DNA from: Persicirhabdus sediminis
GTDB lineage: Bacteria; Verrucomicrobiota; Verrucomicrobiia; Verrucomicrobiales; Akkermansiaceae
Assembly (NCBI RefSeq): GCF_016595495.1
Contig: NZ_JAENIM010000041.1
Span: 278,513 to 342,512 of the forward strand
DNA length: 64,000 nucleotides
Reading direction: 5' to 3'
Shown here one piece after another: positions 6,566-16,530 of the stretch. The position numbers and the translations under genes were made by a program. Below the pieces are notes generated by a model. That model ran no database searches. It was given only the letters and a program-made list of their open reading frames with translations, and was not told the origin of the DNA. The first letter of the stretch is position 1. Each line of letters opens with the position of its first letter.

Positions 6566-8965
6566 TCATAATTGCTTATGCAAAGATCTCCAAATACCTG
6601 GCAGGAAAAAAACAGCAAAGGCCATGCAAATGAGAATGCCAGCGGCACAGATGATACCCATGCTTTTTAGTGCTTCATTAGAAGCTAGGGATAAAGCACC
6701 GAACCCAATTGATGTTGTTAGGCTGCAGTAGATTAATGCTTTGCAGGTTCCATGCCACACTTTTTCTGGCTGGTGGCGGTAGCGGCGCAGCGAGAAAATC
6801 ATGTGAATACTGTAGTCCATGCCCATCCCTAGCAGTAGGGGAACGGCGATAACATTGAGAAAATTCCAGCTGAATGGTGTCAGTTGCATGAATACATTGA
6901 GCAGTAAGGGGGGCAGGCATAGGCAGAGCAAAGCTGCTAATACATCGCGCCAATCTCTAAACACAAAAACTAACATTGATATGAGTAATATTCCCATTGG
7001 GATGAAGACACGAAGGATGTCACGTTCTATCAAAGGTAGAATTACTGGCCGCAGAACCGTCCATCCAGTTACAGTGCTGTGCTCTGTATTGATGCTTTTC
7101 AGTGGAGTTAGATGATGTGGTTGAGCAACTAAAGGGAAATCATTTGGGCTGATTTGAGAAATGGCGGTGAAGGCGCCAGCTGTATCTCTACTGATTTGGT
7201 GATTAAGCATCGTTAGCGTTTCAGCCTGGCTCGGGTAATAGGGAGTTTTGCTGTTTGCTAGATTACTGAACTTACTTAGCTGAGAGAAAAATGATCGTGT
7301 CAAAACCAGAGCTTGATTGGTAAATCCTATTTCAAGCGCTTCCTCTTCGAGTCGCTTCTGGTTAGTTAGTAGCCACTTAATACTTTGTTGGTTTGTTTGC
7401 TGGTTCTCACGGTTGGGCCAAAATGCTAGAGGTGTTGACGATCGGTCAATCAGCCCATTTTCCTCCGCATTGTGTAGTTTTTTCTCGAGCATCTGCAGCT
7501 CGCTAACCATGGCCTCGTCGTCTAGACTCTGACTAACAATATTGACGGTTTTGTTGTCCCAATTAGGAAATGATTCACGGATTAAATCCAGCTGGGTTTT
7601 GGCTTCACTTTGTGATGGATGTAAGCTGTCTAGGTCGAAGTTGAGTTTTGGAACGCCAAATTGCACTAGTGGCCAGCTAGCTAGAACGAGTAGGATCGCC
7701 ATGCTACATGTCGCCATACGCGCTGGTAGGAATCTAGATTTTTTCTTGAGCTGAGCAGATTCTTTGGTGGATTTAACCACGATGGGCAAAAACCAACTAA
7801 GCATAACTGCTGCTCCGACGAGGATGCCAATGGCTACGAGTATGCCTAACTGGCGGATGCCAGGGAGACTGCTCAAGCTAAGCGCTCCAAAAACAGTAGC
7901 TGTTGTGAGAGCCGCCCAGATAATGGCTTTGCGCACGGCTATTTCTAGCTGCTTTCGGTTAGCTCCGGTAACTTGCACTTCTTGGCAAATGACCATGCCG
8001 TAGTCTACCGCGAGCCCAATTAGAATGGAGGCGAAACCTACGCTCATCATGCTGATTTCACCGAGCACGAGGCCGCCAATACCAAGGGTTAGAAAAAAGG
8101 TGATAGCTAGCATGGCGCCCAACCACATGAGTAGCCGCTTGCGGCGAAGCAAGATCCAAAAAAGGACAGTACATGCAATAATAGTTAGGCCAACCGTACC
8201 TCGCATATCGCGCTGGATACCTGCGCCAATTTCTGACGCGAACACTGGTCCGCCAGTCATGCCAATCTCTATCCAGCTTCGGTTGTCTAGCCGCCATAGC
8301 TCAGTTTGCTGGCGCACATTTTGTAGCCATTGGTCAGCTTCACGAAAACCTGAAAACTCTACCGCTGGCTTTAGAATTAACAGATGCATCTGACCGTCGG
8401 CGCTTTCATAGCCATTGTCGCTAGTATTAGCTGATGCAAAGTATTGCGTGAATGCACTGTGGTTGAATAGGTCAAATGGATCTCGAGAGGTAATCGCGAT
8501 GTCATAGGCATCCATGTTAGTCGCTAAAGTTTCTAGCGATTTGCTAAGCTGCTTGCTGCTATTTGATGTCGATAATTTCTCCTCTAGCTGCTGGAACTCA
8601 CCTGCACTTCCATTGACCCAAGCGTAGGCAACTAGCTCGCCAAGGGCTCCGGCTGATTGCTCCCATGCGGGACGATAACGGACTTCGCTAGCTAGCTTTT
8701 CGGTTTGATATAGCTCGGCTAGCAGTTCAGCTTGTTCGGCTAGTAACCCAGCATCTTCAGCTGAGCACCTTAGGGTAACAATGAGTTCACCACCGTCTTC
8801 TATCACGTCCTGATAGGATCTGAGGGCTTTGATCTCGGGTTCGCTGCTAGGAAAGACACCCAAGATATCAGTATCTAGCTTCAGCTGAGTAATGCCCCAG
8901 CTAGCTAGCAGAATAACAAGAATCCAACTAGCTGTGCTAGACAGTGTTTTGCGTGAGTTGGGCAT
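6566..8965 (-). CDS. MMPL/RND-superfamily lipid exporter
   Basis: A 799-residue inner-membrane protein with the duplicated RND layout: one N-terminal helix (about 11-27), a large periplasmic loop, a helix cluster (about 250-385, with MLAITFFLTLGIGGLVLG and SVGFASILIGLAVDYGMV), a second single helix near 400, another loop, and a final helix cluster (about 660-795, including GMGMDYSIHMIF). The GLAVDYGM and GMGMDYSI segments are the two matching helix-4 motifs with the conserved Asp-Tyr that relays protons. The size and lack of a third domain point to the MMPL/HpnN type, which moves lipids such as hopanoids or glycolipids, rather than drug pumps. It is 25 bases behind the DUF2892-like gene and is transcribed away from the carotenoid operon. 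Comparable MMPL and LolA proteins occur together in aryl-polyene pigment clusters, so carotenoid lipid export is a reasonable guess. Confidence 0.85.
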   Translation of the reverse strand: MPNSRKTLSSTASWILVILLASWGITQLKLDTDILGVFPSSEPEIKALRSYQDVIEDGGELIVTLRCSAEDAGLLAEQAELLAELYQTEKLASEVRYRPAWEQSAGALGELVAYAWVNGSAGEFQQLEEKLSTSNSSKQLSKSLETLATNMDAYDIAITSRDPFDLFNHSAFTQYFASANTSDNGYESADGQMHLLILKPAVEFSGFREADQWLQNVRQQTELWRLDNRSWIEIGMTGGPVFASEIGAGIQRDMRGTVGLTIIACTVLFWILLRRKRLLMWLGAMLAITFFLTLGIGGLVLGEISMMSVGFASILIGLAVDYGMVICQEVQVTGANRKQLEIAVRKAIIWAALTTATVFGALSLSSLPGIRQLGILVAIGILVGAAVMLSWFLPIVVKSTKESAQLKKKSRFLPARMATCSMAILLVLASWPLVQFGVPKLNFDLDSLHPSQSEAKTQLDLIRESFPNWDNKTVNIVSQSLDDEAMVSELQMLEKKLHNAEENGLIDRSSTPLAFWPNRENQQTNQQSIKWLLTNQKRLEEEALEIGFTNQALVLTRSFFSQLSKFSNLANSKTPYYPSQAETLTMLNHQISRDTAGAFTAISQISPNDFPLVAQPHHLTPLKSINTEHSTVTGWTVLRPVILPLIERDILRVFIPMGILLISMLVFVFRDWRDVLAALLCLCLPPLLLNVFMQLTPFSWNFLNVIAVPLLLGMGMDYSIHMIFSLRRYRHQPEKVWHGTCKALIYCSLTTSIGFGALSLASNEALKSMGIICAAGILICMAFAVFFLPGIWRSLHKQL

Positions 8966-8990: not shown

Positions 8991-9209
8991 CTACCAAGGT
9001 GTTTTAATTTTCAGGGCGCGCAGTAGACACCATTTTCTAGCGGCTTCGATAAGGCAGAAGATGCCAGCGAGAAATAATGGTGTGCTAACTGGGTAGAATT
9101 CAAAAAAATGATGAACTAAGCCAGCTGAAAGCAGGCAGAGGGTGCCTATAAAGGCGCGGATTTTTTGTCCTCTACGGTCGATGTTGCAGGAAAAGAATGG
9201 CATTGTCAT
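8991..9209 (-). CDS. DUF2892-like small membrane protein
   Basis: A 72-residue protein with an N-terminal NIDRRGQKIRAFIG motif, two hydrophobic segments (about 18-35 and 41-55) and a C-terminal KWCLLRALKIKT. This resembles the DUF2892/YgaP membrane domain: N.gr.dr..R...G near the start, and C.ly.l.gi.T at the end. The family's function is unknown. The cysteine sits where the family often has CP. ATG at 9209 and ATG at 9203 are both possible starts. It heads the minus-strand unit that includes the RND exporter and shares the divergent control region with the carotenoid operon. Confidence 0.6.
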   Translation of the reverse strand: MTMPFFSCNIDRRGQKIRAFIGTLCLLSAGLVHHFFEFYPVSTPLFLAGIFCLIEAARKWCLLRALKIKTPW

Positions 9210-9255
9210 TGATTATTAAAAATGTTGGTCGACTTGTCTAGGTTTTGTGGGATAA

Positions 9256-9307: not shown

Positions 9308-9351
9308 TTTATATTGACAAAATATAGACAAGTTGTAGACGTGTTGTAGTA
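9308..9351. promoter_or_regulatory. Four 11-bp direct repeats resembling a CarH operator
   Basis: Four contiguous 11-bp units: TTTATATTGAC (9308-9318), AAAATATAGAC (9319-9329), AAGTTGTAGAC (9330-9340) and GTGTTGTAGTA (9341-9351). Three share GAC at the end and the last two share TTGTAG. Read on the minus strand the units follow nTnTACAnnnn, which as I recall is the consensus of the 11-bp operator repeats bound head-to-tail by the B12-dependent photoreceptor CarH and related MerR-type regulators of carotenoid genes. The third unit fits fully. The others miss one or two positions. The array ends 12 bases before the crtN-like start and covers the candidate core promoter TAGACA (9325-9330), 16 bases, TAGTAT (9347-9352), as expected for a repressor. 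Confidence 0.7.
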
Positions 9352-9363
9352 TTTCGCAAAACC

Positions 9364-10941
9364 ATGAGTGCTCTAATGACAAGGAATAAGAAGAAAGCCG
9401 CCATCGTTGGTGCTGGTCCAGGCGGCTTAGCTACGGCTATGCTGCTGGCTCAGCGCGGTGTAAAAGTTGATGTATTTGAGCGGGCTGATGTAGTGGGGGG
9501 GCGAACTTCCATTCACAGTGGGGCGGGATTCAAATTCGACCTTGGACCAACTTTTTTTATGTATCCACGCGTTCTGCGTGAAATTTTTGATACCTGTGGA
9601 TTTGATTTAGACAAAGAGCTAGACATGGTCCGGTTAGATCCACAATACCGGATTATCTTTGGAGCCGGTGGTCAGATAGACGCGACATCTAACCTTGAGA
9701 AAATGAAGGAAGAAGTCGCTCGTATTAGCCCAACAGATGCAGATGCATTAGAGCATTTCTTCAATGATAATCGCGAAAAGTTAAAGGCGTTTGAGCCAAT
9801 TCTCCAGCGCCCATTTCACGGCTGGAAAGATCTAATGGATCCGGGTTTGCTTAAGCTGTTGCCACTGCTACGCCCGCAGCTCAGCTTGGATGGTGATCTG
9901 GGTCGATTTTTCAAAGATGAACGCATTCGTTTGGCTTTCAGTTTTCAGTCAAAATACCTTGGCATGTCGCCATTTAGATGTCCTAGCTTATTTTCAATCT
10001 TGTCATTCTTGGAATATGAATACGGCGTCTATCATCCCATTGGTGGCTGCGGCCAAGTAACTAAGGTGATGGCAAAACTGGCTGAGAAAATGGGGGTTAA
10101 CATACACCTCAACGACGAAGTTAAGGGGTTTGATTTTGATGGGAAACGCGTAACGAAAGTACGCAGTGCCAGCGGCATGCATGCTACTGATGCTACCGTG
10201 TTGAATGCTGACTTTGCACGTAGCATGACACGCTTGGTTCCTGATAGTTTACGCAACCGTTGGTCAGACAAACAGATAGATAAGAAGCAGTTTTCTTGTT
10301 CTACCTTCATGCTCTATTTGGGGATTAAGGGGAAATATGATGATCTCAAACATCATACGATTTATATTTCTAAAGACTATAGTGATAACTTGGATCAGAT
10401 AGAAAATAAGATGACTCTATCAGATGACCCGTCATTTTATGTGCAGAATGCCTGTGTCACGGATCCGAGCTTGTCGCCTGAGGGGATGAGCACTCTCTAC
10501 ATTCTATTGCCTGTTCCTCACCAAACTGAAAAAATCAACTGGGATGAAGAACAAGCTCGTTATCGTGAAATTGCGCTAGATCAACTTAAGAAAATTGGAC
10601 TCGATGATGTGCGCGAGCGTATCGAGTACGAGTATATGGTGACGCCAAAAAACTGGGACGAAGACTACCAGATTCACCTGGGAGCCACCTTTAATCTGGC
10701 GCACACATTCAAGCAGATGTTGCATCTACGTCCACGAAACCGTTTTGAAGACCTCGATGGTGTCTACCTAACTGGAGGAGGAACCCATCCCGGTAGCGGC
10801 TTGCCGGTCATCTTTGAATCTGCGCGTATGAGTTCTAAATTAGCCTTAGATGACCTCGGCCTGAGTGAACACTCAGCTGGCTCGAGGATTAAGAATTTGT
10901 TGAAGTCTGGCCCAGTGAGAGCATCCGCGCGAACAGCTTAA
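9364..10941 (+). CDS. crtN: CrtN-like carotenoid desaturase (4,4'-diapophytoene/diaponeurosporene type)
   Basis: A 525-residue FAD-dependent CrtI-family enzyme. The dinucleotide-binding motif GAGPGG is at 16-21, followed by the FERADVVGGRTS extension. Next comes FKFDLGPTFFMYP, and near the end the conserved TGGGTHPGSGLPVIFESARM, which closes the FAD site. Family members dehydrogenate squalene-derived or phytoene-type C30/C40 chains at the membrane. Assignment to the C30 branch rests on the neighbours: a second CrtI-family gene, an aldehyde dehydrogenase and a CrtQ-like glycosyltransferase are the set used for diapocarotenoic acids in staphylococci and planctomycetes. The gene opens a tight operon (12, 7 and 24 bases to the next genes, then an overlap). 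ATG 9364 has no Shine-Dalgarno sequence, and ATG 9376 is an alternative start. No hpnCDE or crtM homologue for precursor supply lies in the window. Confidence 0.8.
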   Translation: MSALMTRNKKKAAIVGAGPGGLATAMLLAQRGVKVDVFERADVVGGRTSIHSGAGFKFDLGPTFFMYPRVLREIFDTCGFDLDKELDMVRLDPQYRIIFGAGGQIDATSNLEKMKEEVARISPTDADALEHFFNDNREKLKAFEPILQRPFHGWKDLMDPGLLKLLPLLRPQLSLDGDLGRFFKDERIRLAFSFQSKYLGMSPFRCPSLFSILSFLEYEYGVYHPIGGCGQVTKVMAKLAEKMGVNIHLNDEVKGFDFDGKRVTKVRSASGMHATDATVLNADFARSMTRLVPDSLRNRWSDKQIDKKQFSCSTFMLYLGIKGKYDDLKHHTIYISKDYSDNLDQIENKMTLSDDPSFYVQNACVTDPSLSPEGMSTLYILLPVPHQTEKINWDEEQARYREIALDQLKKIGLDDVRERIEYEYMVTPKNWDEDYQIHLGATFNLAHTFKQMLHLRPRNRFEDLDGVYLTGGGTHPGSGLPVIFESARMSSKLALDDLGLSEHSAGSRIKNLLKSGPVRASARTA

Positions 10942-10953
10942 ATTTTCTATTGA

Positions 10954-12402
10954 ATGACGATGTCTAGCGAATTACAACATCAATGTGTTAGTGTGCACCG
11001 GCGTGCTATGATGGCTGCTCGATCGTGGCGTAATAACTCGGTGGGCGACCGCCTTGTATTGCTGAAAAAGTTGCGACGTGAAATGGCGTTACGGGCCAGT
11101 GATATTGCTGAGTTGATCCAGCGAGAGGACCTAGCTCTCAGTCTCAGTGCTGAGCTACTGCCGACTTTAGATGCAATGAAATTTCTCGAGAATGAAGGTG
11201 AGAAATTGCTGCGTCCTCGTAGACTTGGCGTTAGGGGGCGACCACTGTGGATGGGCACGGTGGACTCTGAAGTTCACTATGAACCGCATGGTACGATTCT
11301 AATCATTGCTCCTTCTAACTACCCGTTTCTATTGTCAGCCGCATTGGCATTTCAGGCTCTGGTCGCCGGCAATGCGGTGGTGATTAAACCTGCTGAAAAT
11401 GAATCTGCTAGTCTGGAGCTACTTCTGGAAATTATGGACGAGGTCGGTTTCCCGCCTGATATCATCCAGCTGCTAGCGACTAGTGTTGAGTCTAGCAAAG
11501 TGGCTGTTGAGCATGGTTTTGACAAAGTGATATTCACAGGTTCAGCTGAGACGGGGAGGAAGGTGTTAGCCTCGCAGGCGGCAAAGCTGAAACCTAGCGT
11601 GGTAGAACTTTCTGGAAATGATGCCGCGGTTATTCTTGAGGGCGCTGACATTGAACGAGTAGCTAAACTCATTGCTTACGGGCTGTGCCTGAATGATGGC
11701 TGTACCTGCATTTCTCCTCGTCGTCTTTTTGTCGCTAATTCTGTGCTGCATGATTTTGTCCATGCCCTGTCAGCTGAGCTGATAGGTGCGGAGGAAGTCA
11801 TGCTGGGCGAGGCTGCAAAGCAGCGAGTTAACTTGACTATCAATCAATCTCTATCAGCTGGAGCAAGTCTAGCTGTTGGAGGTTTCTCTGAAACTGGGGC
11901 TTTTTCGCCATGTGTGCTCACTGACATAGAAGTGGCAATGCCATTTTGTTCCGAGGATCTATTTGCTCCAGTATGTGGAGTGATTGGCTACGATGATGTT
12001 AGCCAGCTAGCTGAGCTGGTTAATGCGTCACCATATGCATTGGGAGCTAGCGTTTATGGCCCAAATGAGCAAGCTATCAGATTAGCCGGAAAGTTAGATG
12101 TTGGCTGCATTACGGTCAACGACCTGATAGTGCCCACAGCTGATCCACGGGTGCCATTTGGTGGTTACAAGCAGAGTGGATTTGGCACTACTCGTGGACG
12201 AGAGGGCCTGATGGAAATGGTGCGAGCTAAGACTGTATTGATTCGTCGGGGTAAGTTTTTAGGTCAGCTAGATACACCTATCACCTCACACACTTCACTG
12301 ATTGGTAATTACATTAAAATGAGCCATTGCTCCAGCTGGGCAGACCGTGTGCGCGCTAGTATGGAATTTATGAAGGCTTGGAAAAATCAAACTAAGAAAT
12401 AA
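10954..12402 (+). CDS. aldH: Aldehyde dehydrogenase of the carotenoid operon (AldH/CrtNc-type)
   Basis: A 482-residue NAD(P)-dependent aldehyde dehydrogenase. Visible motifs are APSNYPFLLS (cofactor domain start), KPAENES, the FTGSAETG turn of the NAD-binding fold (about 193-200), the general base Glu218 in VELSGND, and the catalytic Cys252 in NDGCTCISPRR. Where most relatives have GQxC this protein has GCTC, so Cys250 replaces the usual Gln. The C-terminal region has the PFGGYKQSGFGTTRG motif that completes the active site. In this context it would oxidise the terminal aldehydes made by the CrtP-like oxygenase to carboxylic acids, as AldH does for staphyloxanthin and for diapolycopenedioic acid. 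It is translated 12 bases after crtN; ATG 10954 and ATG 10960 are alternative starts. Confidence 0.82.
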   Translation: MTMSSELQHQCVSVHRRAMMAARSWRNNSVGDRLVLLKKLRREMALRASDIAELIQREDLALSLSAELLPTLDAMKFLENEGEKLLRPRRLGVRGRPLWMGTVDSEVHYEPHGTILIIAPSNYPFLLSAALAFQALVAGNAVVIKPAENESASLELLLEIMDEVGFPPDIIQLLATSVESSKVAVEHGFDKVIFTGSAETGRKVLASQAAKLKPSVVELSGNDAAVILEGADIERVAKLIAYGLCLNDGCTCISPRRLFVANSVLHDFVHALSAELIGAEEVMLGEAAKQRVNLTINQSLSAGASLAVGGFSETGAFSPCVLTDIEVAMPFCSEDLFAPVCGVIGYDDVSQLAELVNASPYALGASVYGPNEQAIRLAGKLDVGCITVNDLIVPTADPRVPFGGYKQSGFGTTRGREGLMEMVRAKTVLIRRGKFLGQLDTPITSHTSLIGNYIKMSHCSSWADRVRASMEFMKAWKNQTKK

Positions 12403-12409
12403 CAAAACG

Positions 12410-13942
12410 ATGAAATCAGAGACTAAAAATGTAGCTGTTATCGGCTCAGGGTTAGGAGGACTAACGGCGGCATGTACAGCTGCTGCGCGTGGCCACAAAG
12501 TAGTTGTCTATGACAAGAATTCCTGGGCGGGTGGTAAAGCTGCCGTATTAAATCAAGACGGCTACAGGTTTGATATGGGGCCAACCATCCTTACTTTACC
12601 TAAAGTGCTGAAGCGCGTTTTTGATGAAGCTAACAAAGAGATGAGCGACTATCTAGAGATGGTGCCGCTAGACCCTCAGTGGCGATGTTTCTATGAAGAC
12701 GGCGAAGTTCTCGACCTCGTTAGTGATGTGGCGGCGATGAAAAAAGAGCTGGACCGTTTCTCTAATGAGGCTGGTGAAGCCGAGCGATACGAGGAGTTCA
12801 TCAAGATTAGTGAGCAACTGCACGAGATCTCGAAGAAATTCTATTTCTGGAAGAGCGTTGGTGGTGTTGGCGATACCATGAACTTGAAAAAAATGGTCGA
12901 GGTGAAAGTACTCAAAGATCTGTTTGCCCTACGCATGGGTAAGAGTATGGCTGGTACCGTTAGAAAGTATGCCCACGATGAACGTGTGGCGCAGATGCTA
13001 GATCATTTCACCCAGTATGTTGGATCTAGCCCAATGGGCTCGCCAGCTGTGCTCTGCGGTATTGCGCACATGCAAGTAGAGGAAGGCATCTGGTACCCAA
13101 TGGGGGGAACCAGAGCTGTGCCAGAGGCATTGGTTAAGCTAGCTGGTGATTTAGGTGTAGAATTTAAGCTGAATGCTGAAGTCACCAAAATCAAAGCTAA
13201 AAACGGACGCGCTTACGCAGTCGTTAGTGAGGAGCACGGTGAGGAAGCCTACGACTCTATCATATCAAATAGCGATAGTGTGCGTACTTTCAACGAGCTA
13301 GTAGATGGTGGATTGAAGAAGCCGTTTGTTGCTGATAGATACGAGCCAGCTTGTAGCGGAGTCGTGCTCTATCTAGGCCTCAATAAACGCTACGAGCACA
13401 TCCAACATCATAACTTTGTTTTCTCTAGAAATGCTGAGGAAGAATTTGATGCTATCTACAAACAGGGAATTCCTGCGCCTGATCCTACTTGTTATCTTTG
13501 TGCTCCAGCAATGACTGAGCCAGCGGTGGCTCCTGATGGTGGAGAGGCGCTGTATGTGCTTGTGCACACTCCTTACTTACACGAGGGGCAAGACTGGAAC
13601 GAAATGTTACCAGGCTACCGTCAGGTGATCTTGGATAAACTCAAGCGCTGTGCAGGCATGGAGGATATTGAAGAGCGCATTGTTACGGAGGCGCACCTAA
13701 CTCCTCAAGATATTCACGATCGTTACCGTGTGCTTAATGGCGCGATTTATGGCCTTGCTAGTCATGGCCTGTTTGGCGGCGCATTTAAGCCAGCTAACCA
13801 ATGTCCGTGGTTAGACGGTCTCTACCTATGTGGTGGAGCTGCTCACCCTGGACCAGGCATGCCAATGGTAATGATGTCAGGATGGATTGCGGCTGATTGC
13901 CTCGACAAAGATGCGGCTCCTGCGGTAGCTGCTGTAGTCTAA
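12410..13942 (+). CDS. crtP: CrtP-like carotenoid oxygenase/desaturase (CrtI family)
   Basis: A 510-residue CrtI-family flavoprotein. The FAD motif GSGLGG is at 12-17, then the NSWAGGKAA loop and YRFDMGPTILTLP, with the closing motif LCGGAAHPGPGMPMVMMSGW near the end. It is clearly homologous to the first desaturase of the operon but divergent throughout, so the pair is not a recent duplication. In C30 pathways the second CrtI paralogue oxidises terminal methyl groups to aldehydes (CrtP), which the adjacent aldehyde dehydrogenase then takes to acids. That order is my reason for the CrtP label. Which paralogue desaturates and which oxidises cannot be proved from the sequence. The gene starts 7 bases after the aldehyde dehydrogenase stop and precedes the acyltransferase by 24 bases. 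Confidence 0.75.
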   Translation: MKSETKNVAVIGSGLGGLTAACTAAARGHKVVVYDKNSWAGGKAAVLNQDGYRFDMGPTILTLPKVLKRVFDEANKEMSDYLEMVPLDPQWRCFYEDGEVLDLVSDVAAMKKELDRFSNEAGEAERYEEFIKISEQLHEISKKFYFWKSVGGVGDTMNLKKMVEVKVLKDLFALRMGKSMAGTVRKYAHDERVAQMLDHFTQYVGSSPMGSPAVLCGIAHMQVEEGIWYPMGGTRAVPEALVKLAGDLGVEFKLNAEVTKIKAKNGRAYAVVSEEHGEEAYDSIISNSDSVRTFNELVDGGLKKPFVADRYEPACSGVVLYLGLNKRYEHIQHHNFVFSRNAEEEFDAIYKQGIPAPDPTCYLCAPAMTEPAVAPDGGEALYVLVHTPYLHEGQDWNEMLPGYRQVILDKLKRCAGMEDIEERIVTEAHLTPQDIHDRYRVLNGAIYGLASHGLFGGAFKPANQCPWLDGLYLCGGAAHPGPGMPMVMMSGWIAADCLDKDAAPAVAAVV

Positions 13943-13966
13943 CTCTAATTGTTTGGATTGTTAACA

Positions 13967-14749
13967 ATGGTTCCTTCATCGACAGACTTACCTAGCATCT
14001 CTGCATGGAAATGGCGTTTTTTTCAGGTGTATATTCATCGTTACCTGAAAAAAAACTTCCATGCCGTGCGGCTGAGTAAAAAGTCGATGAAGGATTTTAT
14101 TGATCAACCAGTGGTGATTTTTGCAAACCACCCGTCATGGTGGGATCCACTAGCATCCTTATTTCTAGCGAATAAATTGATGCCAAATCGTGGCCACTAT
14201 ACGCCAATGGATGGCGAAATGCTAGAGCGCTACAGCATCTTCAAAGGCTTGGGGTATTTTGGTCTGACTCATGGTAATCGTCAATCAGCACGCAAATTTC
14301 TAAAGATTTCTCATGCGGTGATAGAATCTGGTGGTGTCTTGTGGATGACTCCGCAAGGGCGATTTAGTGATGTGCGCGAGCGTCCAGCAGCTTTTATGTC
14401 GGGCATGGCTCATTTAGTAAAGTTACCCCAGGTGATTCGTTTCCAGCCACTGGCGATAGAATACGTTTATTGGAATGAAAAACACGCTGAAGTTTTACTG
14501 CATTTTGGCGAGGCAGTCGAACTCGCTGAAGCTCATGAGCTAGCTGAGAATCATGCGCGCATGGAAGCGGCACTCACCAAAGCGCAAGATGAGCTTGCTG
14601 TGTTAGCCAAGCAACGGTCAGCTGATCAGTTCGAGAATTTACTGTCGGGGCAAGCTGGCATGGGCGGACTTTATGGACGCTGGATGAAGTGGCGCGGCTA
14701 TCAAGATGATCATATGATAGACGGCCAAACTGAGGGGAGTCGGTCATGA
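13967..14749 (+). CDS. PlsC-like acyltransferase
   Basis: A 260-residue member of the lysophospholipid acyltransferase (PlsC) superfamily. The catalytic HX4D motif is NHPSWWD with His55 and Asp60. The second conserved block is TPQGRFSDVRERP, equivalent to the family's PEGTRS region. There is no strong multi-helix membrane region, so it is probably a peripheral membrane enzyme. The frame extends up to a TTG at 13949, but the ATG at 13967 gives a more natural start. In the operon it would attach a fatty acyl chain, most simply to the sugar placed on the carotenoic acid by the following glycosyltransferase. Its stop codon overlaps the next start (ATGA), indicating coupled translation. Confidence 0.8.
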   Translation: MVPSSTDLPSISAWKWRFFQVYIHRYLKKNFHAVRLSKKSMKDFIDQPVVIFANHPSWWDPLASLFLANKLMPNRGHYTPMDGEMLERYSIFKGLGYFGLTHGNRQSARKFLKISHAVIESGGVLWMTPQGRFSDVRERPAAFMSGMAHLVKLPQVIRFQPLAIEYVYWNEKHAEVLLHFGEAVELAEAHELAENHARMEAALTKAQDELAVLAKQRSADQFENLLSGQAGMGGLYGRWMKWRGYQDDHMIDGQTEGSRS

Positions 14750-15870
14750 GTTGGGATACCATAGCTTACGTCTGTCTGGCCTGTGCGGCTTTACCTGCTG
14801 TGCAGTGTTTGATTAATAGCTTTGTTTTTCTTCCTCCTCGCGGCGCGGAAAAACCTTTACCCGCTGTTTCAGTATTGATTCCAGCTAGAAATGAGGAGGC
14901 TAATATTGCGAAATTGATAGATTCTCTACTTTCTAGCAAACATGATGATTTTGAGCTGATTGTTGGAGATGATGACTCGAGTGATCGTACGGCTGAGATA
15001 GTGACACAGTTAGCAGCTGGAGATAGTCGAGTCAGCTTACTGCCTATCGAAGGGAAGCCAGCTGGCTGGGGTGGGAAAATGTATGCCTGTGAACAGTTAG
15101 CCAAAAACGCCAGCCACGAATACCTATTGTTTCTGGATGCAGATGTGGTTGTCACAGAAGATGCCTTGGGTGATATGTTAGCGTTTTTGCTACAAGGGAA
15201 AGAGCTTGGCATGATTTCTGGAATTCCCAAACAGATCACGGGAAGCTGGCTAGAGCGTCTGCTGATTCCGTTGGTCTATTTTATATTGTTAGGATTTTTA
15301 TCTATCATGCGCATGCGTTGGTTCAAGACACCAGCTTATGCTGCAGCTTGTGGGCAGGTGATATTTTGCCGCCGCAATGCCTACTTTGAAATTGGCGGGC
15401 ATGAGGCGATCAAGAGTTCAGTACACGACGGCTTAGATTTACCTCGTCTTATGCGCAGAGCTGGCTGGCGCACGGATCTATGTGATATTTCAAAGTTGTG
15501 CAGCTGCCGAATGTACCACAATGCCCGTGAGACTTGGAACGGCTTGGAGAAAAATGCTCATAGGGGAATAGGCAGCCCGATGTTGATAGGTTTCTTTACC
15601 GTTCTGCTACTTACTGGGCAGGTTCTACCAGTTTTGCTGCTACCATTTACTGAGCTATTTAGTTTTTACAGCTGGCTGGCGTTGTTCGTATCAGTAGTCA
15701 TTTCCTATGCTCAGCGGATCTATCAAGTGGTGGCGTTTGGCAATTGTTTAGCTGGAGCCATGCTGCATCCCTTAGGCATCGTGATATTTCTAGCTGTGCA
15801 GTGGACGTCTTTAGTTAGACGACTTCTCGGGGTGAAGTCGACTTGGAAGGGTCGTGTCATTGAAGCCTAA
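14746..15870 (+). CDS. crtQ: Family 2 glycosyltransferase, CrtQ-like
   Basis: A 374-residue membrane-anchored GT2 enzyme. An N-terminal helix (about 4-24) is followed by the GT-A fold: VSVLIPARNEEANI, then VGDDDSSDRTAEI, the metal-binding DAD at 131-133 (FLDADV), and later HEAIKSSVHDGLDLPRLMRRAGW, with the ED-like base region. The C-terminal third has about three or four hydrophobic helices (YFILLGFLSIM, LLLTGQVLPVLLLPF, SWLALFVSVVISYA, LHPLGIVIFLAVQW). This layout matches the CrtQ group, which esterifies diapocarotenoic acids with a sugar at the inner membrane. The sugar cannot be read from the sequence. Xylosyl esters of diapolycopenedioic acid are known from Rubritalea, which makes xylose a candidate. 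It overlaps the acyltransferase gene by 4 bases. Confidence 0.78.
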   Translation: MSWDTIAYVCLACAALPAVQCLINSFVFLPPRGAEKPLPAVSVLIPARNEEANIAKLIDSLLSSKHDDFELIVGDDDSSDRTAEIVTQLAAGDSRVSLLPIEGKPAGWGGKMYACEQLAKNASHEYLLFLDADVVVTEDALGDMLAFLLQGKELGMISGIPKQITGSWLERLLIPLVYFILLGFLSIMRMRWFKTPAYAAACGQVIFCRRNAYFEIGGHEAIKSSVHDGLDLPRLMRRAGWRTDLCDISKLCSCRMYHNARETWNGLEKNAHRGIGSPMLIGFFTVLLLTGQVLPVLLLPFTELFSFYSWLALFVSVVISYAQRIYQVVAFGNCLAGAMLHPLGIVIFLAVQWTSLVRRLLGVKSTWKGRVIEA

Positions 15871-15876
15871 TTACTT

Positions 15877-16530
15877 ATGAAAGATAAAATCAAAATCTAT
15901 CTAGCGTTAATTTTGCTAGTATCGTTGGTGCCAGCACGAGCGAGTGATCTAGCGCCATTAGAATCCTGGCTGGCAGCGCAGGCAAATTATAGATCTGTAC
16001 AGGCTGAGTTTATTCAGACTCGCCAGCTAGCAAGTGTGCGGGATCCGCTGACAGCAAAGGGTGAAATGTGGGCGAAACACCCAGGCTATTTTCTCTGGGA
16101 TATAGGTAGGCCTAGCAAAGTGCGGGTTGTACGAAATCCAGCGGGTTATACCTATTTTAATCTAGCTGAAATGAAGGCAGTTGTGATGGCCCCTGATAGT
16201 CGATATGCCAAACAGTTCGCCTTTCTCAATGCTGAGATGCCAGCTAGCCTAGCAGAGTTGCAGAAGCGCTTTAAGATTGAGAAGACCTCAATGGATGCTC
16301 AGAAGATCTTTTCGGTGACGATGTCACCAGTAGCTCGCAGGATGCGCAGCGAGCTACCGTGGGTGATGTTCCAAATTGACAGTCAAAAGAACCAGCTAGT
16401 GGCTTTTGAAATTCACCTCAAAGACAAAACAAAAATCCGCACGGTATTTACCAAATACCAATGGAATGTGAAGATTCCGGATAGTCGCTTCCAGCTGTCT
16501 ACCGCAGGCTTTGAGGTGATTAGAAAATAA
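15877..16530 (+). CDS. LolA-like periplasmic lipid carrier
   Basis: A 217-residue exported protein. The signal peptide ends at about ARA (residues 20-22). The mature part starts LAPLESWLAAQANYRSVQAEF and then shows the LolA-like pattern: FIQTRQLASVRDPLTAKGEM followed by KHPGYFLWDIGRPSK, with a beta-rich open half-barrel expected. Family members carry lipoproteins or other acylated molecules between the inner and outer membranes. LolA-like proteins without LolB also appear in aryl-polyene and similar pigment clusters next to MMPL exporters. As the last gene of the operon (6 bases after crtQ), and with an RND exporter divergent to it, it may ferry the acylated glyco-carotenoid. That role is inferred. 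Confidence 0.72.
   Translation: MKDKIKIYLALILLVSLVPARASDLAPLESWLAAQANYRSVQAEFIQTRQLASVRDPLTAKGEMWAKHPGYFLWDIGRPSKVRVVRNPAGYTYFNLAEMKAVVMAPDSRYAKQFAFLNAEMPASLAELQKRFKIEKTSMDAQKIFSVTMSPVARRMRSELPWVMFQIDSQKNQLVAFEIHLKDKTKIRTVFTKYQWNVKIPDSRFQLSTAGFEVIRK

Follow-up and report, generated by a model that had tools for sequence, protein, structure and literature searches.

What reads the short tandem repeat in front of the carotenoid (crt) operon of Persicirhabdus sediminis, and does it place pigment synthesis under the control of light? The repeat lies in a stretch of 64,000 nucleotides (the window, to which all bare coordinates refer) and had been picked out by a first-pass annotation, made from the letters alone, as an operator of four 11-bp direct repeats for the B12-dependent photoreceptor CarH. 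We find that the tandem repeat is very probably a CarH docking site, and give a probability of roughly 0.87 to the fuller reading that the array is the operator of an adenosylcobalamin (AdoCbl)-dependent, light-sensing CarH repressor controlling the crt operon. A CarH encoded in the genome and the conservation of the 11-bp spacing among relatives both support this reading.

The repeat array and the operon behind it

The stretch from 9308 to 9351 is as first described, including its end 12 bases before the first gene, whose ATG stands at 9364. On the plus (coding) strand it resolves into two full repeats, one single-mismatch repeat and one pseudo-repeat, in exact 11-bp steps. Unit 1 (TATATTGACAA, 9310-9320) is a full TnnACA and includes a -35-like TTGACA at 9314-9319; unit 2 (AATATAGACAA, 9321-9331, with its TAGACA at 9325-9330) matches the consensus perfectly; unit 3 (GTTGTAGACGT, 9332-9342) reads TnnACG, with one mismatch; and the fourth unit (GTTGTAGTATT, 9343-9353) is a degenerate pseudo-repeat that agrees with TAGACA at three of six positions. 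The earlier description is right about the tandem 11-bp repetition and wrong about its strand and register. CarH repeats have been published as nnnnTnnACAn (PMC9304148) and as nAnnTnnACAn (PMC8156234), the latter of which the array matches at exact 11-bp steps, and CarH does bind published operators in which two repeats are full and two are pseudo-repeats (PMC9304148).

The register first assigned to the repeat, nTnTACAnnnn on the minus strand, is fully matched in only one of the four units (GTCTACAACTT); with this motif the array is the best three-unit (13/15) and four-unit (16/20) site among about 128,000 positions in the window. We rejected the minus-strand register because TAGACA/TnnACA, the form that the conserved units take in front of carH genes elsewhere, is found on the plus strand here. 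A PWM built from 193 units in the upstream regions of 100 other carH genes, with the P. sediminis genome left out, has the consensus AAnnTAGACAA and places the units on the plus strand, in a register offset by 2 bp from the earlier one. Scored alone, units 1 and 2 reach 11.6 and 15.9 bits. Together they reach 27.6 bits, against 10.9 for the next best two-unit site elsewhere in the window, and units 1-3 reach 31.9 bits, against 7.7 for the runner-up three-unit site; the fourth unit pulls the four-unit score down to 20.3 bits.

The best sigma-70-type promoter candidate, TAGACA-16-TAGTAT (9325-9352, plus strand), lies wholly within the array; its hexamers are only fair (9/12) and its assignment is uncertain. 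The array had also been placed between divergent pigment genes, which is true of the crt operon on one side; on the other side lie a 72-aa membrane-protein-like ORF (8991-9209) and an MMPL transporter (6566-8965), both on the minus strand and diverging from the operon, and no homologue of the transporter was seen near carH in relatives. A single good unit on this divergent side (AACCTAGACAA, 9234-9244, minus strand, 14.1 bits by the PWM) has no partner at 11 bp, and the best promoter candidate on the minus strand, TAGACA-17-AATAAT, takes its -35-like hexamer from the TAGACA of this unit, whose function is uncertain.

The apparent operon, all on the plus strand, opens with a crtN-like diapophytoene desaturase of the crtI family (9364-10941; TIGR02734, 531.9 bits), followed by an aldehyde dehydrogenase (10954-12402; PF00171) that may oxidize a carotenoid aldehyde, a second crtI-family oxidoreductase resembling crtP/crtNb (12410-13942; TIGR02734, 376.8 bits), an acyltransferase (13949-14749; PF01553), an HpnB/CruG-like family 2 glycosyltransferase (14746-15870; PF00535) and, last, a LolA-like carrier protein (15877-16530; PF03548, and flexirubin LolA2-like by NF053544). 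The aldehyde dehydrogenase, acyltransferase and glycosyltransferase all have orthologues in carH-linked clusters. Because the operon holds the matching enzymes, and the genome holds two SQS/PSY-family genes outside it, one HpnD-like and one squalene-synthase-like, a C30 acyl-glycosyl diapolycopenoate is the probable product, as in Rubritalea squalenifaciens (PMC9598406).

One CarH and its unlinked candidate targets

The first-pass annotation had expected a regulator combining MerR and B12-binding domains elsewhere in the genome, and one is present, full-length and with all signature residues kept. A search for B12-binding domains returned MetH and one other protein, of 305 aa and encoded on contig C45, in which a MerR HTH (PF13411), a four-helix B12 cap (PF02607) and a Rossmann B12 domain (PF02310) all score above cut-off. 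It is the one CarH of the genome, and its gene is unlinked to the crt operon, which lies on another contig. Among solved structures in the PDB its best relative is Thermus CarH (E ~2e-23), and this match across both domains settles the CarH fold at the level of sequence. The light-response signature of GxxW, EH, GxxH and GxxxP (PMC11796333) is represented by G143/W146, E156/H157, G190/H193 and G215/P219, all eight of which are invariant in 16 orthologues. As for the CarH motifs Wx9EH and an ExHxxG-type lower ligand (PMC8156234), the protein has W146-x9-E156-H157 and the lower ligand H193-x-x-G196, the first residue of ExHxxG being Q191 here and in nearly all orthologues. The NCBIfam model for CarH, NF052513, is the best family by far (118.6 bits, 2.9e-34) and falls below its equivalog cut-off of 400, which is an annotation threshold, not a biological definition, and appears to suit a narrow set. 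Besides MetH, the genome encodes a PduO-type cobalamin adenosyltransferase (PF01923), so AdoCbl can be made from B12; a BtuR/CobO-type adenosyltransferase is absent from it.

Strong arrays stand at three unlinked loci in this genome: the crt operon (27.6 bits), a CIA30-domain gene (25.1 bits) and carH itself (24.1 bits). The carH array (TATATAGACGA AAGCTAGACAA) directly precedes the start codon. The CIA30-domain gene lies on contig C39 (PF08547, E 6.6e-44), with its array (AATGTAGACAA ATTATTGACAT) at L224:7396-7484, equivalent to G000:C39:75395 onward, and orthologues 42-53% identical to it sit beside carH in at least nine relatives, including Rubritalea marina and R. profundi. Genes that neighbour carH elsewhere and are separated here have thus kept their operators, and it is difficult to see what other than control by CarH would conserve them on genes so scattered. 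We regard this as the strongest single argument for CarH reading the array at 9310-9353.

Two further sets of loci had been proposed to carry such arrays, the hpnC/D-like and photolyase loci, and none was found there (best two-unit scores of 6.9, 5.4, 11.3 and 10.6). Elsewhere in the genome, an exact TAGACA-N5-TAGACA pair of 23.3 bits occurs at G000:C42:116354 (L007/L095, about position 1500), only bases ahead of the probable start codon (ATGAAGCGC) in a gene for a beta-barrel-like protein with no carH-linked orthologue of note. This pair is possibly a fourth CarH target, and possibly chance.

Could the 11-bp periodicity before the crt operon likewise be an accident of A+T-rich promoter DNA around a -35 TTGACA? 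The hexamer pattern by itself is not rare in 4.17 Mb: its counts over whole genomes are not enriched relative to those of the reversed pattern, and a genome-wide search for three units with three mismatches gave one site, compared with two for the reversed control, so that arrays are told apart only by their position near genes and by the full matrix. By those measures a chance origin is very improbable, as the array stands before an operon of the type linked to carH, scores far above the rest of the window with a PWM trained elsewhere, and has counterparts at carH and the CIA30 gene, neither of them linked to it.

Spacing, gene order and a second regulator among relatives

Conservation of the spacing was read from the upstream regions of carH and from the crtN arrays of relatives, no close congener being among them. 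The named carH loci come from GTDB genomes, mostly of Verrucomicrobiota, with some from Latescibacterota, KSB1, Abditibacteriales and Gemmatimonadetes. In a motif-free test, which counted hexamers repeated at a fixed lag in the 300 bp upstream of 102 carH genes, 99 pairs of any hexamer fell at lag 11, against 4-26 at each of lags 7-10 and 12-23. The recurring unit is TGTCTA/TAGACA in 11-bp steps: pairs of TAGACA occur 11 bp apart in 21 regions, and at any other lag from 7 to 23 in three at most. Across 27.6 kb of upstream DNA, the PWM found 79 two-unit sites scoring 20 bits or more at lag 11, compared with 1, 1, 1 and 0 at lags 9, 10, 12 and 13; the flanks, at 746 kb, yielded 8. The de novo hexamer test is the cleaner of the two because the PWM was trained on lag-11 pairs. 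At a threshold of 16 bits, 65 of 79 carH loci have a site, as does 1 of 1580 shuffled upstream regions. The lag test, the PWM and the shuffles thus agree with the earlier expectation that related species would keep the spacing, which is found upstream of carH in the majority.

Some carH loci do without it. In the PWM scan, more than half of the first 30 carH loci had no such array, none being recognisable at, for example, L035, L036, L038, L050-L052 and L056, and the upstream region of the gene for the most similar CarH (57%, in G009) likewise lacks a recognisable array (-4.5 bits). Other operator variants must therefore exist, or CarH acts elsewhere in these genomes. Strong extra arrays were also seen 0.7-1 kb from carH in MAGs of Latescibacterota and KSB1 (L183:2213-2267, L161:3791-3846 and L190:1739), indicating that the putative TAGACA code reaches beyond Verrucomicrobiota.

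Homologues of crtN and crtP lie within a few kb of carH at 17 or more named loci, and most are orthologues of the operon in the window (57-64% identical for crtN near carH, about 53-64% for crtP in carH-linked clusters). One example of carH adjoining crtN is Rubritalea marina DSM 17716 (L153). The gene order crtN, aldehyde dehydrogenase, crtP, acyltransferase, glycosyltransferase recurs at several loci. Most crt orthologues diverge from carH, and many relatives have arrays in the intervening DNA. At L192, L201 and G061 (L066), crtN is preceded at a distance of 70-270 bp by an array whose TAGACA reads along the coding strand of crtN, just as it does in the window; at many other loci an extra gene separates carH from crtN and the array precedes that gene, which in L177 and L202 encodes a sigma-70-like protein. 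G079, which has the operon and no CarH, has no such array.

Genes of the sigma-70 type are divergent from carH in three loci (at -1497 to -2471 in L177, -219 to -1202 in L202 and -304 to -1158 in L204, relative to carH), and in L177 and L202 arrays lie between carH and the sigma-factor gene cluster; some Verrucomicrobiota may therefore place an alternative sigma factor under CarH control as well. In an Akkermansiaceae MAG, a DNA photolyase gene (L136:3197-4642, minus strand; PF03441, PF00875) is found less than 3 kb from carH and its arrays.

A different regulator accompanies the operon in three relatives (G068, G077 and G083), where the protein encoded at the operon is of the MerR family without a B12 domain. 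In such proteins an unannotated domain takes the place of the B12-binding part, and the C-terminal half contains a CECPQHL motif that is invariant among them; the five examples lie at L214:6282-7259, L215:4205-5188, L216 from about 7660 down to 6690 (minus strand), L217:9758-10687 and L218:5421-6512 (minus strand). The promoters of these B12-less regulators of crt clusters carry arrays in three of five cases, those of G068, G077 and G083 having 11-bp TAGACA arrays of 20-25 bits and those of the similar proteins in G015 and G053 having none. The P. sediminis array might thus be an operator of the CarH family whose reader is a B12-independent MerR protein (CarA-like, class II LitR-like or of the CECPQHL type), with no direct control by AdoCbl or light, as the operons of these three relatives, headed by or adjacent to such a protein, would allow. 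We consider this unlikely: the CarH query, which detects the HTH of the B12-less type elsewhere at E 1e-12 to 1e-18, returned only CarH and MetH from the whole P. sediminis genome, with no second CarH-like HTH protein, and the genome's own CarH keeps all of its AdoCbl residues.

There is about an even chance that Verrucomicrobiota use one TAGACA/11-bp code before the same operon for two MerR-headed sensors, CarH in most and the CECPQHL type in G068, G077 and G083. The pattern points to an exchangeable sensor acting on an unchanged operator and target; if so, these genomes would form a natural series for studying how a photoreceptor is replaced by another signal.

Proposed mechanism and comparison with known systems

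By analogy with the CarH proteins of Thermus, Bacillus and myxobacteria (PMC8156234, PMC9304148), from which we infer binding, oligomer state, dependence on light and B12, and the direction of repression, we propose the following mechanism. In the dark, an oligomer of AdoCbl-loaded CarH would sit head to tail on the units at 9310-9342, or as far as 9353, covering the putative -35/-10 region of the crtN-aldh-crtP-acyltransferase-GT2-lolA operon and blocking RNA polymerase. Green, blue or UV light would break the Co-C bond, upon which the oligomer would disassemble and leave the DNA, allowing the carotenoid operon to be transcribed. The carH gene itself and the CIA30-domain gene would be repressed by the same CarH, each through its own array. 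Most likely, then, P. sediminis makes its carotenoid only under light.

CarH could instead bind as an activator or as a sensor of B12 level, given that other MerR proteins activate transcription and that light dependence is inferred here. We think this quite improbable, since the array overlaps the putative -35/-10 region, not an extended spacer, the light signature is intact, W-x9-EH included, and the characterised CarH proteins are repressors (PMC8156234, PMC9304148).

The locus had been put forward as an undescribed light-controlled C30 carotenoid cluster in a verrucomicrobium. C30 carotenoids have been described before in a verrucomicrobium, Rubritalea (PMC9598406, PMC3967232), and CarH and the form of its operator are known as well, so that only the regulation is apparently undescribed in the phylum; no description of CarH control of carotenoids in Verrucomicrobiota was found in the open literature searched. 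The analysis predicts that light controls carotenoid synthesis in Verrucomicrobiota in a B12-dependent way, and it gives an operator consensus with which CarH regulons can be sought throughout the phylum. The proposed regulon of three unlinked loci (carH, the crt operon and the CIA30 gene) can be tested together, and new natural CarH proteins and operators would be useful as green-light optogenetic parts.

The system is similar to that of Thermus thermophilus, whose CarH operator (three 11-bp direct repeats; PDB 5C8E) also has TnnACA units, there over the promoter and here over the best promoter candidate, and whose CarH likewise joins a MerR part to AdoCbl binding and has Wx9EH along with the remaining signature residues. 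It differs in its phylum, in the TAGACA core with an A-rich flank seen here and in relatives, in its crtN/crtP-type operon and in having carH unlinked. The Bacillus megaterium CarH operator has four repeats, or three and a pseudo-repeat (PMC9304148). The predicted operator described here resembles it in placing three units and a degenerate fourth over the putative -35/-10 region. LitR/CarH clusters elsewhere include genes for photolyase and a sigma factor, and relatives of P. sediminis likewise have photolyase, SRPBCC and sigma-70 genes adjoining carH, whereas its own photolyase loci are without an array. The carotenoid pathways of Myxococcales are C40. Their CarH/CarA operators mix full and pseudo-repeats (PMC9304148), as the P. 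sediminis array does, and in Sorangiineae the arrays lie between divergent carH and crt genes (PMC9304148), as in many of the relatives examined here. Myxococcales sometimes have a B12-independent paralogue, CarA, in addition to CarH, whereas P. sediminis has one CarH only.
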